Part shown: positions 30,666 through 42,008 of the stretch, one piece after another | Layout: every line of letters starts with the position of its first letter | How positions within the stretch are numbered: position 1 is the stretch's first letter | NCBI GenBank assembly: GCA_003151335.1 | Contig: PLXE01000111.1 | Location: 1-48,530 of the forward strand | DNA length: 48,530 nt | From: Acidobacteriaceae bacterium | Lineage (GTDB): Bacteria > Acidobacteriota > Terriglobia > Terriglobales > Acidobacteriaceae | Reading direction: 5' to 3' | Position numbers and translations under genes: made by a program | Notes under the pieces: model-generated | The model's input: the letters and a program-made list of their open reading frames with translations, nothing else | What the model was told of the DNA's origin: nothing | The model's database searches: none

Positions 30666-32196
30666 ACATCCCGGCCCCGCCTTCGAAGATCTTCTCCATC
30701 TGGTAGGGGAACACGCGATAGAGAGCGTAGCTGATGGCGGTATCCGAATACTGGCGAAAGAGCAGGTCGCCACGGCCGTTGGCGTCGGCATCGATCGCGT
30801 CGATGATCTGCATGCGCGGGAAGGCATCGAGGTGGTTGCGATCGGTGACCACGCTGAAGATCTTCTGCGGCGTGCCGTTGAGATCAACCCTGGCAACCAC
30901 CGTGACGAAGTAGTCGAACTCGCCTCCGGGAGTAGTCTTTGCGGGCGCAACCGGCAGTTTGGCACTGAGCACTAGCGTGGGCGAGTTGCTGTAGTCGAGA
31001 TCGAAGCCACGCAGATCGTAGTCGGTGACGGCGGCTGTCTTGGGCACCGCCGGACCGTTGTGTTTGCTGGCATACTTGCGCACCTCGTCCATCGCCATTC
31101 TCGACATCGGATCGCCCAGGCTTTGTCTTTCGCTGGCCGCCATCCCATACAGCAGCGACCGAGTTTGGTAGTCGCCCGCATCGGAGATCGCCGCATAGGC
31201 GCGCGGCGCCTGTGTGGCTTTGGCCGAAGTTCCGGGAGTGCTGGTTGCAATACCCCCTGCGGCTGGGCTGCCTGCCTTGCTCGCACTTGCATTGGAGTCG
31301 GCTGTATCGGGAAGGCCTGGCTGCGTGACCGGCTTGCCACGCCGCAGTACTGGACGGTTGGGATCGTCTTCATCGGGTGACGCCGCTGACGGCGCATTTG
31401 AAGCTGACGTCTGCGCTTTCGCTTGCTGAGTATTGTCGCCGAGGGTCGGCTTGGAATTCGAAGGCGCAGACGACGAGGCGGGCGGCGCGGCTTTTAGCGT
31501 GGGCCGGTCGGAATCGTCGTCCGATTTCGGCGGAGCATTGCTGTTCGCAGTTGAAGTCCCACCGTCGGACGGAGTCGAATTTCCACCCGAGGTGGAAGCT
31601 GGCGCGCTGGTCTGTCCACTGCTCGGAGACGCCGTATCGCTTGCTCCCGGGCGGCGCAGCACTGGCGGCCCTTGATCGTCGCTGAGCACGTCCCGCCCCT
31701 TCGGCTCCGGCTTAGGCTGCTTCGCGGCCTGCTGAGCGATCCGGGCTTCGACCGGCGTTTCAGGCTTCCATTGCCCCTCCGCAACCCAGTTGCCGTTGAG
31801 GTCTCGGGGCGTCGTCACCGTAAACCATCCCGCAGGCTCTCCGTAAGCCAGCGCTTGGTACAGGGTTTCGGGCTGCAGCGCCATGGGCTCGGGATTTGCG
31901 CCGTAAAGGCTGGCATCGTAGAAGTGCCCATCGAGCCATAGCGCAATTGGCACCAGCCGCGTGCCGCCGCCGGGCAGAAACTCGACCACGGCGATGGCGC
32001 GCGGGCCGCGCTTGCTCTTCTTGTCTTGCTTCTTGTCTTGCTTCTTCGCTTGCTGCTGGTCCTGGTCAGTGGGCTTGTGCTCGGTTCGGTCGCGAATCTG
32101 CGCAGCGACGAAAGTTGGCAGCAACAGGACTGCAAGCAGCCCCGCGGTGGCCCATTTGCCGGATTTGCGGTATAGATAGTGCAATATGGAAATCAA
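30664..32196 (-). CDS. Secreted protein with low-complexity linker
   Basis: A 510-residue exported protein of unknown function. A signal peptide spans about 13-32 (ATAGLLAVLLLPTFVAAQ). The N-terminal folded part (about 55-155) is followed by about 180 residues rich in Ser, Ala, Pro, Asp and Thr with the recurring phrase (D/G)xPVLRR or RPTLK, then a C-terminal part with DYDLRGFDLDYSN and DADANGRGDLLFRQYSD, an FG-GAP/VCBS-like calcium-type motif. The TTG start at 32196 has GGGAG nine bases upstream. It overlaps the divergent peroxiredoxin start by about 11 bases, so each promoter must lie within the other gene. Confidence 0.8.
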   Translation of the reverse strand: MISILHYLYRKSGKWATAGLLAVLLLPTFVAAQIRDRTEHKPTDQDQQQAKKQDKKQDKKSKRGPRAIAVVEFLPGGGTRLVPIALWLDGHFYDASLYGANPEPMALQPETLYQALAYGEPAGWFTVTTPRDLNGNWVAEGQWKPETPVEARIAQQAAKQPKPEPKGRDVLSDDQGPPVLRRPGASDTASPSSGQTSAPASTSGGNSTPSDGGTSTANSNAPPKSDDDSDRPTLKAAPPASSSAPSNSKPTLGDNTQQAKAQTSASNAPSAASPDEDDPNRPVLRRGKPVTQPGLPDTADSNASASKAGSPAAGGIATSTPGTSAKATQAPRAYAAISDAGDYQTRSLLYGMAASERQSLGDPMSRMAMDEVRKYASKHNGPAVPKTAAVTDYDLRGFDLDYSNSPTLVLSAKLPVAPAKTTPGGEFDYFVTVVARVDLNGTPQKIFSVVTDRNHLDAFPRMQIIDAIDADANGRGDLLFRQYSDTAISYALYRVFPYQMEKIFEGGAGM

Positions 32197-32647
32197 ATCG
32201 AAAGCTCCCGACTTTACCCTGCCCGACGAAAACGGAAACCCGGTTTCGCTCGATCAGTTCCGCGGCAAGACCGTGGTCCTGTTCTTCTACCCCAAAGCCG
32301 ACACGCCCGGTTGAACCATAGAGGCGTCCGGGTTCCGTGACGCATACAGCAAATTGCAAAAGGCCGGACTGGTGGTGCTGGGCATCTCCGGCGACACGCC
32401 GAAGGCACAGTTGAAGTTTAAAGAAAAATACGGCCTGCCGTATACCTTGCTGGCCGACGACAAGAGGGAAGTCGCCAAGAAGTTCGGCGTCCTCAAAGAG
32501 AAGAACATGTATGGCAAGAAGGTGATGGGCATCGCCCGGACCACGTTCCTCATCGGGCCGGACGGCAAAATCGCGCATATCTTCGAGAACGTCAAGCCCG
32601 ACGGCCACGCGGAAGAGGTGCTGGCGGAGGCGAAGAAGAGGGGATAG
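32186..32647 (+). CDS. bcp: Selenocysteine peroxiredoxin, BCP type (in-frame TGA read as Sec)
   Basis: A thiol-type peroxidase of the BCP/PrxQ family, 153 residues if the TGA at 32312-32314 (codon 43) is read through. The frame is MEIKSKAPDFTLPDENG, then VVLFFYPKADTPG-TGA-TIEASGFRDAY, then the complete rest of the fold ending HAEEVLAEAKKRG. The TGA lies exactly where the peroxidatic cysteine stands in TPGCT. A hairpin with a GUU loop follows 9 bases on. No other cysteine exists: the usual resolving position (EACG-like) is Ser in EASGF. I infer a one-selenol peroxiredoxin reduced by thioredoxin or a similar thiol. A nonsense mutation is the alternative, but the intact downstream frame argues against it. 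SelA, SelB, SelC and SelD must be coded elsewhere. Confidence 0.85.
32324..32343 (+). promoter_or_regulatory. SECIS-like hairpin after the Sec codon
   Basis: GCGTC (32324-32328) pairs with GACGC (32339-32343); above it CGG (32329-32331) pairs with CCG (32335-32337) with U32338 bulged, leaving apical loop GUU. The loop starts 17 bases after the TGA, its first base is G, and the bulged U recalls the E. coli fdhF element, where it lies on the other strand of the stem. Drawn by eye. Confidence 0.65.
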
Positions 32648-32667
32648 GGGATAGTTGGTCAGTGGTC
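32640..32667. repeat. GGGGATA/AGTGGTC heptamer repeat
   Basis: GGGGATA twice (32640-32646, 32647-32653), then GTTGGTC and AGTGGTC. The first unit overlaps the peroxiredoxin stop codon and the last overlaps the HicB-like stop. Confidence 0.6.
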
Positions 32668-32844
32668 GGAAGACCTCCTCTCCACAAGTCCTCGCTGGCA
32701 GTCCAGCACCAGTTGGAGCGCGTCGCGAAGGTTCGCCTTCGCTTCTTCGAGGGTCTCTCCCTGCGAAACGGCGGCAGGAATCTCTCCCACGAAGCAGGTG
32801 TATCCACCCTCTTTGGCTGGTTCAAACACCGCAGTCAGTTTCAC
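32659..32844 (-). CDS. HicB-like protein without a HicA partner
   Basis: A 61-residue protein of the HicB fold. It has the beta-strand MKLTAVFEPAKEGGYTCFVGEIP, the AVSQGETLEEAKANLRDALQL helix, and a short C-terminal tail. No DNA-binding extension or HicA toxin gene lies on either side, so it is not a complete toxin-antitoxin pair. Solitary HicB-like proteins are common and may be regulators of unknown targets. The start is GTG, and a heptamer repeat block separates it from relA on the same strand. Confidence 0.82.
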   Translation of the reverse strand: MKLTAVFEPAKEGGYTCFVGEIPAAVSQGETLEEAKANLRDALQLVLDCQRGLVERRSSDH

Positions 32845-32921: not shown

Positions 32922-35147
32922 CTAGATTTTCTGCATGCGCTGCACGTCGCGCACCCCGGGGATCTTACGCACGCCGGTGACGATGCGCTCCAGGTGCTTG
33001 AGGTCGGCGATGTCGGCCACCAGGTCAACCGTGGCGTGGTCTTCGGCGGTTTTGGCTTCGATGTTGCGGATGTTGGTGTTCGCGTCGCTGATAACCGTCG
33101 CGATTTGTTTCAACATGCCGGGACGGTTATCGCAGTGCACCGCCAGCTTTACAGAATAACCAGCTTGCCAGTTTGCCGAAGCGGCATCCTTCCCCCACTC
33201 GACGGCGATGCGACGGTCCGGTTCATACATCAGGTTGGTGACGTTGGGACAAGCCTTGGAGTGCACCGCCACTCCTTTGCCCCGGGTGACGTAGCCAACA
33301 ATCTCTTCGCCGCGAATCGGATTACAACACTGCGCACGGTACACCAGCAGGTCGTCGTGTCCAGTTACCATGATGGCCGACGTTTCCGAGCCAAACACGC
33401 GACGGATAACGCTGGTAAATCCCCCCGTCGGATCTTTGTCCGGTTCGCCTGCGCCTGATATCCCAGACGAGGCGTTGGCGGGGAGTACGCGTGCCAAAAT
33501 GCTACGCGCCGAGTACTTGCCGTAACCGATAGCGGCCAGCAGGTCGTCGGGCTTGGCCAGCCCATTTTCGCCGGCCACCCGCGTCAGCTCCGCTTCGCTC
33601 AGATTTTTCAGAGCAATGCGATATTTGCGCGCCTCTTTTTCGATCAGCTTGCGGCCGATTTCGATGGCGCGTTCGCGCTGATGCACGTTCAGCCAGTGCT
33701 TGATCTTCTGGCGGGCGCGCGGCGATTTCGCCAGTTGCAGCCAATCCCGGCTGGGATGGTGGCCGGGCGAGGTTTGAATTTCCACGATGTCGCCGGAGCA
33801 CAACTTGTAACGCAAGGGCGCCATGCGCCCGTTTACCTTGGCGCCTACGCAGGTGTGGCCGACCTCGGTGTGGACGGTATAGGCAAAGTCAATCGGCGTG
33901 GCATCCTGCGGCAGGATGACGATCTTGCCCTTGGGGGTAAACGTATAAACCTCTTCCGGATAGAGGTTGATCTTCAGCGTGGAGAGGAACTCGTCGGAGC
34001 TCTTCATGTCGCGCTGCCACTCCACCACCTGGCGCAGCCAGGCCAGGCGCTGCTCGTCGCGCGCCGACACCGGCCCATCTTTGTACTTCCAGTGCGCCGC
34101 AATGCCTTCCTCGGCCATCTTGTGCATTTCTTCGGTGCGGATCTGCACCTCGAAGGCATGGCCCTTCTCGGAGATGACGGTGGTGTGCAGCGACTTGTAG
34201 AAATTATTGCGCGGGATGGCGATGAAGTCCTTGATTCGTCCCGGCACTGGCCGCCATTGATTGTGGATGATGCCCAACACCGCGTAGCAATCGGATTCCG
34301 ATTGCGTAATGATGCGCAACGCCAGCATGTCGTATATCTGGTCCACCGAAATGCGCTGCCGCTGCAGCTTCTGCCAGATGCTGTAAAGGCGCTTGATGCG
34401 GGCTTCCACCTTGGCCTGGATCTTGGCTTCCTTCAGCTTCTGCCCGATGACGGTCTGCACCTCGGCCAGGAAAGCCTCGCCCTCTTTGCGGCGTGACTCC
34501 ATGGCTTCCTTGACCTGGTTGTAGGAAATGGGATCGACGTACTGGAAGGCCAGGTCTTCCAGTTCGCCGCGGATCTTTCCCATTCCCAGGCGATGCGCGA
34601 TGGGAGCGTAAATTTCCAGCGTCTCTTTGGCGATCTTGAACTGCCGCTCCGGCGAGAGAAACTTCAAGGTGCGCATGTTGTGCAGACGGTCGGCCAGTTT
34701 GATCAGCACCACGCGGATGTCATCCATCATGGCCAGCACCATCTTGCGCACGTTTTCGGCCTGCGCCTCTTCCGACGACGCGAAGTCGATCTTGCTGATC
34801 TTGGTGACGCCTTCGACGATGTGGGCGACCTGCTCGCCGAACTCAGCCGTGATCTCTTCGATGGTTACCGAGGTGTCTTCCACTGCGTCGTGCAGCAAGC
34901 CGGCGACAATGGCGGTGGGGTCGAGCCGCATCTCCGCCAGCAGGGTCGCAACCTCCAGAGGATGCGTCAGGTAAGGTTCTCCCGATTCGCGGGCCTGTCC
35001 TTTGTGATGTTCCAGAGAGAATTCGTAGGCCTTCTTGATCAGGGCCTGGTCGTCGTCGGGCCGGTAGGAGCGGACCTTGCGCAGCAGATCGCGAAAACGT
35101 GTAACCGTCAAAACATTGGTCGCGATGTGCTGGCGCAAAGTCGCCAT
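32922..35147 (-). CDS. relA: Bifunctional (p)ppGpp synthetase/hydrolase (RelA/SpoT)
   Basis: Makes and degrades the stringent alarmone. It is 741 residues. The hydrolase HD motif is LLHDAVEDT (H86-D87), the synthetase domain includes RIKDFIAIPRNNFYKSLHT and VQIRTEEMHKMAEEG, the TGS domain starts EVYTFTPKGKIVILP with YTVHTEVGH, and a C-terminal ACT domain (VKLAVHCDNRPGMLKQIA) closes the protein. Both activities look intact, so it is the single Rsh-type enzyme rather than a mono-functional RelA. Its stop is bordered by the heptamer repeat. Confidence 0.96.
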   Translation of the reverse strand: MATLRQHIATNVLTVTRFRDLLRKVRSYRPDDDQALIKKAYEFSLEHHKGQARESGEPYLTHPLEVATLLAEMRLDPTAIVAGLLHDAVEDTSVTIEEITAEFGEQVAHIVEGVTKISKIDFASSEEAQAENVRKMVLAMMDDIRVVLIKLADRLHNMRTLKFLSPERQFKIAKETLEIYAPIAHRLGMGKIRGELEDLAFQYVDPISYNQVKEAMESRRKEGEAFLAEVQTVIGQKLKEAKIQAKVEARIKRLYSIWQKLQRQRISVDQIYDMLALRIITQSESDCYAVLGIIHNQWRPVPGRIKDFIAIPRNNFYKSLHTTVISEKGHAFEVQIRTEEMHKMAEEGIAAHWKYKDGPVSARDEQRLAWLRQVVEWQRDMKSSDEFLSTLKINLYPEEVYTFTPKGKIVILPQDATPIDFAYTVHTEVGHTCVGAKVNGRMAPLRYKLCSGDIVEIQTSPGHHPSRDWLQLAKSPRARQKIKHWLNVHQRERAIEIGRKLIEKEARKYRIALKNLSEAELTRVAGENGLAKPDDLLAAIGYGKYSARSILARVLPANASSGISGAGEPDKDPTGGFTSVIRRVFGSETSAIMVTGHDDLLVYRAQCCNPIRGEEIVGYVTRGKGVAVHSKACPNVTNLMYEPDRRIAVEWGKDAASANWQAGYSVKLAVHCDNRPGMLKQIATVISDANTNIRNIEAKTAEDHATVDLVADIADLKHLERIVTGVRKIPGVRDVQRMQKI

Positions 35148-40251: not shown

Positions 40252-40913
40252 AACTGCTTCTCCGAGGAGATCATGTCCGATCGCGACAGGCGTTCATAAT
40301 CTTCGGGCGTGTCAATGTTGGTGACGGCCCGCGCGTCTTCCACCGGCAGGTACTTGATGTGCCGTTGCTGCTGGTGCTCGAGATCGCGGGCGGTCGCGTC
40401 GAGCGGAGCGCGGAGGAAGGCTTCGATCAGCTCCCGGCCGATCAAGATGGGATGCCCGTGCACCCGCTCCGCCCCGCGTTGCACTTCGGGTACGACGGCC
40501 CACACCTCTGGATCCGCGCTCAGAAAAGCGTCGTGCAGTTTTTGCAGCGTAGCGGGCAACACCGGAGGGCGGTCCGTCAGCGCCAGGAAGGCGGCATCGC
40601 GGCCGTGATTCAGCACTTCCCGCACGCCCAGCCGCAGCGAACTGAACTGCCCCCGCTCGGGAGTGGGATTCACCACCAGAAACGCTCCGTGCGCGTAGGT
40701 GACCGGCCCAATGGCCGGTGCGTTCTTCCCAGCCACCACGATGACCAGATCGGTCATGGGCTGAAGCAGATCGATGGTAGCTCCGAGAAAGGTGTTAGCC
40801 GCCGGCGTTCCTTCGGCCACGGGCGGCCACGGCAGAAGCGCTTTGTCGCGGCCCATGCGCGTGGAAAAACCGGCCGCCAGGACCACTCCGCAGATACTGG
40901 GAGACATCGCCAT
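40248..40913 (-). CDS. MobA/MocA-like nucleotidyltransferase
   Basis: A 221-residue enzyme that transfers a nucleotide to a phosphorylated substrate. The signature VLAAGFSTRMGRDKALLPW is at 11-29, and FLALTDRPPVLPATL and GAERVHGHPILIG near the middle fit the family closely. MocA makes CTP-linked molybdopterin; substrate here is open, because no molybdenum cofactor gene is adjacent. Its stop overlaps the start of the HAD phosphatase, so the pair is probably one unit, such as a nucleotidyl transfer followed by a dephosphorylation. Confidence 0.88.
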   Translation of the reverse strand: MAMSPSICGVVLAAGFSTRMGRDKALLPWPPVAEGTPAANTFLGATIDLLQPMTDLVIVVAGKNAPAIGPVTYAHGAFLVVNPTPERGQFSSLRLGVREVLNHGRDAAFLALTDRPPVLPATLQKLHDAFLSADPEVWAVVPEVQRGAERVHGHPILIGRELIEAFLRAPLDATARDLEHQQQRHIKYLPVEDARAVTNIDTPEDYERLSRSDMISSEKQF

Positions 40914-41012
40914 GCCACGAAGATATCAAAGCGCAGTTGCAGAAACCAGCCAATACCGTGGCGATGCCGTTATACTTCTGCAACGACGCGATTGCTTTTG
41001 CATCGAACCTGC

Positions 41013-42008
41013 ATGGCGACCCGAACACAAACTCTGAGCGAACAAGACCTTCGGGACCTGGGCTTCGGCTCGGTGGTGTCGCGGGAAAGCCACCAGCGCC
41101 TGCTCAATCGCGACGGCAGTTTCAACGTCGAGCGACGCGGATTGCACTTCTGGTCGTCCTTCAGCCTCTATCACGCGCTGCTAACCATGCCCTGGTGGCA
41201 GTTTCTGCTGGTCGGGGTGGGCTGGTACGCGCTGGCGAACACCGTGTTTGCATTGGCTTACGTGGCTTGCGGTCCCGCAGCGTTGGCCAGTACCACTCCC
41301 GGTATCGAGCACGATCCGTTCTTGCGCGCGTTTTTCTTCAGCGTGGAGACGCTCTCCACCATCGGCTACGGAAATATCGTGCCCACTGGCGTGGCCGCAA
41401 ATGTGGTGGTCACCATCGAGGCGCTGGCCGGACTGGCCGGGTTCGCCATCGTGACCGGACTTCTATTCGCGCGGCTTTCGCGGCCCACGGCGAAGGTGCT
41501 GTTCAGCCATCACGCTGTCATTGCGCCTTACCGCGACATCACCGCGTTCGAGTTTCGCGTGGCCAATGCGCGTTCCAGCGAATTGATCCAGGTCTCCGCC
41601 ATCGTGCTGCTCAGCCGCTTCGAACAGATTGGCGGCGTGCATACCCGCCAGTACTACCCGCTGCCACTGGAACGGGAGAAGGTCGTATTTCTGCCGCTAA
41701 CCTGGACGGTCGTGCACCCGATCGACGAAACCAGCCCGCTGCATGGCGAGACGCAGGAGTCGATGCGCAGATCGCAATCGGAATTTCTGGTGCTGCTCAG
41801 CGCTTTCGACGAGATTTTCTCGACCACCGTCCAGACGCGCACCTCTTACACGCCCCACGAGATCATCTGTGGGGCCCGCTTCGCCAACGCTTTCATGCTG
41901 GATGCCGCGCAACAATTTACCGACGGCGCGGGCAAGAACAGGAAGGTTGCGGTGGACATGCGCCTGTTCGACAAGGTGGAGACAGTTGCCGAAATGCAAC
42001 GGCGTTGA
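41013..42008 (+). CDS. Inward-rectifier-type (Kir) potassium channel
   Basis: A KirBac-type channel, 331 residues from ATG 41013; an upstream in-frame extension runs antisense through the nucleotidyltransferase and is rejected. The two transmembrane helices are at about 60-87 and 127-152, with pore loop and selectivity filter TIGYG (116-120) between them. The cytoplasmic domain starts near 158 (RPTAKVLFSHHAVI) with the Kir immunoglobulin-like fold (ISAFEFRVANARSSELIQ-type stretch). It would let potassium pass under gating by lipids or ligands, as known for the family. The gene is alone and divergent from the nucleotidyltransferase. Confidence 0.94.
   Translation: MATRTQTLSEQDLRDLGFGSVVSRESHQRLLNRDGSFNVERRGLHFWSSFSLYHALLTMPWWQFLLVGVGWYALANTVFALAYVACGPAALASTTPGIEHDPFLRAFFFSVETLSTIGYGNIVPTGVAANVVVTIEALAGLAGFAIVTGLLFARLSRPTAKVLFSHHAVIAPYRDITAFEFRVANARSSELIQVSAIVLLSRFEQIGGVHTRQYYPLPLEREKVVFLPLTWTVVHPIDETSPLHGETQESMRRSQSEFLVLLSAFDEIFSTTVQTRTSYTPHEIICGARFANAFMLDAAQQFTDGAGKNRKVAVDMRLFDKVETVAEMQRR

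Follow-up and report, generated by a model that had tools for sequence, protein, structure and literature searches.

The classic peroxiredoxin that uses selenocysteine (Sec) is reportedly PrxU of Eubacterium acidaminophilum, said to have been described by Soehling in 2001 and to carry Sec in a TxxU motif. In cysteine peroxiredoxins of the BCP type, a resolving cysteine typically, though not universally, lies five residues after the peroxidatic one. A Bcp that carries Sec in a TxxU motif has been described before: Table 1 of a review, as far as the consulted part goes, lists a Sec peroxiredoxin under COG1225 (Bcp), with the TxxU motif and WP_011365628.1 as the example (PMC9312934), and the word "Acidobacteria" has no occurrence in the searched part of that article. 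The accessible part of a 2006 survey counts four selenoproteins from three families in Acidobacteria (PMC1794560), one of which may be a Sec-peroxiredoxin gene. A literature search, judged by listings and the opening lines of abstracts, returned no published acidobacterial Sec-peroxiredoxin. Here, we analyzed a contiguous stretch of 48,530 nucleotides from an Acidobacteriaceae bacterium (hereafter, the window), in which the original prediction had placed a BCP/PrxQ-type frame with an in-frame TGA exactly where the peroxidatic cysteine should be.

A BCP/PrxQ frame with TGA at the peroxidatic position

The predicted frame was recovered in full. It opens with ATG at 32186, reaches TPG after 42 codons, meets its single in-frame TGA at 32312-32314, continues with T-I-E, and closes with TAG at 32645-32647. 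The features of the locus are:

32186-32647, plus strand: predicted gene for a BCP/PrxQ peroxiredoxin of 153 residues that contains Sec43 (from the BCP model, the fold, and the PDB match)
32312-32314, plus strand: in-frame TGA, codon 43, at the position of the peroxidatic cysteine (TPG-U-T; from the sequence and 150 family loci)
32324-32343, plus strand: SECIS-like hairpin of 8 bp with one bulged U and the loop GUU at 32332-32334 (from folding and the bacterial SECIS criteria)
32327-32329, plus strand: codon 48, TCC (Ser), replacing the BCP resolving cysteine, inside the hairpin (from alignment)

When translated through the TGA, the product matched the Pfam family AhpC-TSA (E 7.4e-43) and, over residues 5-149, scored 161 bits with the NCBIfam model for the thioredoxin-dependent thiol peroxidase BCP (PRK09437, cut-off 140). 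The likeness to PrxU that had been drawn beforehand holds for a Sec peroxiredoxin in general but not for the kind of enzyme: the NCBIfam PrxU model (NF040737) gave 49.7 bits, below its cut-off of 270, and membership in PrxU was rejected in favor of BCP/PrxQ. The active site, PKADTPGU, follows the PxxxTxxC/U pattern and is accompanied by the conserved Arg; Pro36, Thr40, residue 43, and Arg118 are invariant among 30 aligned relatives. The AlphaFold model of the read-through product has a mean pLDDT of 93.5, and the best PDB match of the predicted fold is the BCP chain 9a4d_B (TM 0.97). A search of the window's genome for further BCP copies gave a single match at E 1e-30, and the idea of a second copy was rejected.

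It had also been foreseen that a usual gene call would cut this gene, and the mechanical list of open reading frames indeed breaks it into 31896-32321 and 32354-32647. This splitting is what a plain nonsense mutation would give, in a gene that is decaying or yields only a 42-residue fragment. Against such a mutation stand the whole fold, which is predicted at high confidence, the lack of any further stop ahead of or inside the read-through match, and the recurrence of the same TGA in relatives (see below). Selection after the TGA is purifying, with dN clearly lower than dS in each of the nine pairs compared, of which eight were TGA-TGA pairs (for example, dN 0.030 and dS 0.281 for L102 and L104). 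We therefore regard the nonsense mutation as almost certainly the wrong explanation.

Upstream of the gene, TATAGA lies at 32171-32176 (plus strand), 9 nt before the ATG, and a ribosome-binding site is not evident by eye; it is possible that the transcript is leaderless. Just behind the peroxiredoxin, on the minus strand, is a 61-residue frame (32659-32844) that by eye looks like a HicB-type antitoxin, and a RelA/SpoT-type (p)ppGpp enzyme adjoins the peroxiredoxin (32922-35147, minus strand). Elsewhere in the window, a 549-residue frame (40359-42008, plus strand) encodes a bacterial inward-rectifier potassium channel with IRK_C and Ion_trans_2 domains.

TGA and cysteine codons alternate in relatives

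Of 200 genomes searched, 196 had a match, and 150 of these, which belong to the window's family and have one locus each, were read at the codon level. Codon 43 was TGA in 56 loci and a cysteine codon in the other 94 (88 TGC and 6 TGT), and nothing else occurred there. Among the best 80 of 558 relatives from a genome collection, codon 43 was TGA in 23, TGC in 56, and TGT in 1; the titles in this set, which shares species with the family set, are nearly all Acidobacteriaceae, Acidobacteriales, Acidobacteria/Acidobacteriota, or Terriglobia/Terriglobales, and the titles of the nearest relatives in it, such as Acidobacteriaceae bacterium bog_382 (95% identical), suggest that the window comes from an acidobacterium of soil or peat. 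Chance or a local sequencing error at the TGA was rejected on these two sets of counts. Three of the remaining 46 matching genomes (L257-L259) were read later and also have TGA. No stop precedes codon 43 within the match in any of the 56 TGA loci; the frame ends at a normal stop in 55 of them and reaches the contig end in the last (L248). Both the TGA/TGC alternation and the absence of decay in relatives, named in advance as checks on the original prediction, thus turned out in its favor.

A phylum-wide search covered 396 genomes, of which 246 had a match among the matches listed. Outside the window's family, five rows among the matches listed contained an in-frame TGA; in four of them (L252-L255, acidobacterial family f29) it stands at codon 43, and the fifth (L256) has TGC there. 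The four f29 TGA genomes all have selA (4/4) and a tRNA-Sec above the cut-off (4/4). On the best FastTree phylogeny, which was built from few columns, there are at least 10 changes between Sec and Cys, 4 of them forced by well-supported (starred) branches, and the direction of change is not readable from this count.

Selenocysteine machinery in the window's genome

The window's genome (G000; 4.65 Mb in 121 contigs) contains the genes for Sec insertion that the original prediction had proposed to look for, all above curated cut-offs: selA (559 bits), selB (398 bits), selD (370 bits), and a tRNA-Sec (66.6 bits, cut-off 47), which ARAGORN also calls as tRNA-SeC with anticodon tca. The selD match has an in-frame TGA of its own:

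G000:C41:49821-50753: selD (L018), with one in-frame TGA directly before ASKLSP

We take this TGA to stand at the place of the active-site residue, and selD is probably a selenoprotein gene as well. Across the 150 family genomes, selA was found above the cut-off in 55 of the 56 with TGA vs 43 of the 94 with Cys (Fisher p 1e-12, with shared ancestry ignored); well-supported branches of the tree provide only 4 independent Sec/Cys pairs, too few for significance on selA.

The one TGA gene whose genome lacks a selA match (G120) would suit a suppressor tRNA that reads UGA as Cys or another ordinary amino acid, such as selC* tRNA-Cys or the allo-tRNAs. The consulted part of PMC7609411 records allo-tRNAs from Acidobacteria and an opal selC* tRNA-Cys from certain phyla, and it places the latter in other phyla than the Acidobacteria. 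G120 has a tRNA-Sec of 63.1 bits, and its missing selA is likely due to an assembly gap. The window's genome itself has one tRNA-Sec above the cut-off together with selA, selB, and a selD containing TGA, and the hairpin next to the UGA, described below, is expected for SelB and not for a free suppressor. Taken together, these results make a suppressor very unlikely, and the reading of the TGA as Sec is supported at the level of sequence.

A SECIS-like hairpin downstream of the TGA

Bacterial SECIS elements are expected to have a loop of 3-9 nt, a stem of 4-16 bp, a G within the first two loop positions, a distance of 16-37 nt from the UGA, and an MFE of at most -7.5, according to a figure legend in the accessible part of a recent review (PMC13188914, Fig. 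2). The window hairpin lies within all of these limits, with a TGA-to-loop spacing of 17 nt and -10.2 kcal/mol when folded alone. Its fold is unexceptional in a shuffle test (z -1.48; 17 of 200 shuffles fold as well or better), and three stretches folded singly gave z-scores of -0.55, -1.00, and -1.48. The evidential weight of the hairpin comes from the comparison across genes and not from a single-sequence fold.

In that comparison, the bacterial SECIS model fits 51 of the 56 TGA genes vs 14 of the 94 Cys genes, and the identical loop and spacing occur in 48/56 vs 2/94. Over nt 10-39, the MFE averages -11.0 in 63 TGA rows vs -6.8 in 95 Cys rows, and four control stretches show little or no difference between the two. 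The codons are constrained over the same region: where the amino acid is the same, the identity of the codons over 47-54 reaches 0.77 for TGA rows vs 0.60 for Cys rows, and in the flanks it is 0.50/0.47 and 0.45/0.45 (TGA/Cys). Gly49 is encoded by GGG in 49 of the 56 TGA rows and in 3 of the 94 Cys rows.

Three versions of the hairpin occur, and each goes with a single residue at position 48. When codon 48 is TGC (Cys) or CGC (Arg), codon 51 is always CGC; when it is TCC (Ser), codon 51 is CGT in seven of eight cases. In the TCC form, the Asp codon contributes the G that pairs with the C of TCC, and a U is left bulged. RNAalifold detected next to no covariation inside the TGA sets because the helices hardly vary, and on the whole TGA set it returned a consensus of only three pairs, owing to the three versions of the hairpin.

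A covariance model of the hairpin, searched against the window's genome, returned only the window site at E up to 10, a sequence on which the model had been trained. Over the 150 loci, it separated TGA and Cys genes only in part: the TGA genes L195, L186, L220, L225, L228, and L243 scored 26-36 bits, among the Cys-gene scores, and the TGC gene L103 scored 60.4. Five of the 56 TGA genes do not fit the SECIS model, and four of these are from genus g55. The g55 TGA genes (L186, L220, L225, L228, and L243) form one well-supported clade without the usual hairpin, in which four do not fit the model and one fits through a different hairpin 32 nt away; selA is present in 5/5 of their genomes.

Loss of the resolving cysteine and a predicted one-Sec mechanism

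The position of the resolving cysteine is occupied by Ser48, and no cysteine was found anywhere in the 153-residue window protein, which is therefore probably a one-Sec enzyme with an outside thiol as the reductant. In the family set, 17 of the 56 Sec forms lack Cys48 (9 have Ser and 8 Arg) vs 2 of the 94 Cys forms, and among the best 80 of 558 relatives the loss is seen in 12/23 vs 0/57; these counts are of kin sequences and not of independent events, with 4 comparable pairs on starred branches, again too few for significance.

A Sec enzyme could still work with two residues if the resolving thiol came from a second subunit or a fixed partner protein. Two-residue chemistry appears to be normal in this family, as Cys48 is kept in 39 of the 56 Sec forms, and some Sec forms without Cys48 carry Cys97, Cys96, or Cys90. 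The window protein, by comparison, has no cysteine, so a second copy of it would supply no thiol, and 7 of the 56 Sec forms likewise have none at all. We consider a two-residue enzyme unlikely here and favor the one-Sec mechanism.

In the scheme that the frame, the machinery genes, the codon alternation, the constrained hairpin, the purifying selection, and the absence of cysteine suggest, SelB would bring Sec-tRNA-Sec to UGA codon 43 under the guidance of the downstream hairpin, and the UGA would therefore be read as Sec and not as a stop. The Sec selenol would then reduce peroxide and become a selenenic acid. With Cys48 changed to Ser and no other Cys present, a selenenylsulfide could not form within one chain, and so an outside thiol, either thioredoxin or a small thiol, would probably return the oxidized Sec to the selenol. 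We consider it very probable, judging from sequence, that the gene makes a Sec-containing BCP/PrxQ thiol peroxidase of this kind, with UGA 43 read through SelB and the hairpin and an outside thiol as the reductant.

Cysteine genes that retain the hairpin

A genome of the window's genus (G115) has TGC at codon 43 together with Ser48. The 37 nt after this codon are identical to those of the window, and the sequences differ at 8/126 and 21/285 sites on either side; G115 also retains selA and tRNA-Sec. This is most simply read as a recent change from Sec to Cys, after which a one-Cys enzyme and a fossil SECIS would have remained. Two Cys genes keep the hairpin, L103 and L247; the latter (genome G028, TGT) is the second with the same hairpin and adjoins a Sec gene in the tree. 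In the consulted part of the 2006 survey, the table has no entry for a Sec-to-Cys change in peroxiredoxin, and remnant hairpins are reported in other families (PMC1794560). According to the accessible part of a 2026 review, Sec-to-Cys changes are rare and concern mainly FdhA and SelD (PMC13188914).

These observations suggest a tentative account of the cysteine-free one-Sec PrxQ, to which we give slightly less than an even chance. Sec at the peroxidatic place may have freed Cys48 to change, and since the SECIS hairpin includes codon 48, base pairing in the RNA may have helped to choose the replacement, either TCC (Ser) with the bulged-U hairpin or CGC (Arg) with a straight six-pair stem; a one-base fallback to Cys, as in G115, would then yield a PrxQ that is truly one-Cys, along with a fossil SECIS. 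If this account is true, the genes form a natural series showing how selenium use reshapes an enzyme mechanism.

Comparison with known systems

Gene callers cut or miss this gene, and 56 of the 150 examined BCP genes of the family (over a third) would look broken. The family supplies closely related enzymes of both the Sec and the Cys type, some having the resolving cysteine and others lacking it, as well as two Cys genes that bear the hairpin. Such natural comparisons allow direct tests of what selenium use costs and gains, and of whether a resolving cysteine is needed.

The Cys-type PrxQ of Xanthomonas campestris (5iiz) has the same fold as the window protein (TM 0.91), and both it and 9a4d_B carry Cys at the peroxidatic position, where the window protein would carry Sec. 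The PDB entries of X. campestris PrxQ include C48S and C84S mutants, which point to what is presumably a two-cysteine enzyme; by spacing, its Cys84 matches Lys79 of the window protein. PrxU of E. acidaminophilum likewise has Sec in a TxxU motif, yet it belongs to another subfamily, as the PrxU model score indicates. To the known Sec-containing Bcp, the present locus and its relatives add a cysteine-free form, the spread of Sec within the family, and fossil hairpins, none of which was found in print within the scope of our literature search. The nearest described counterpart is the Bcp entry of PMC9312934, with which the window protein shares the BCP domain, the TxxU motif, and predicted Sec at the peroxidatic position, and from which, on a comparison by description only, it differs in having no cysteine besides the Sec.
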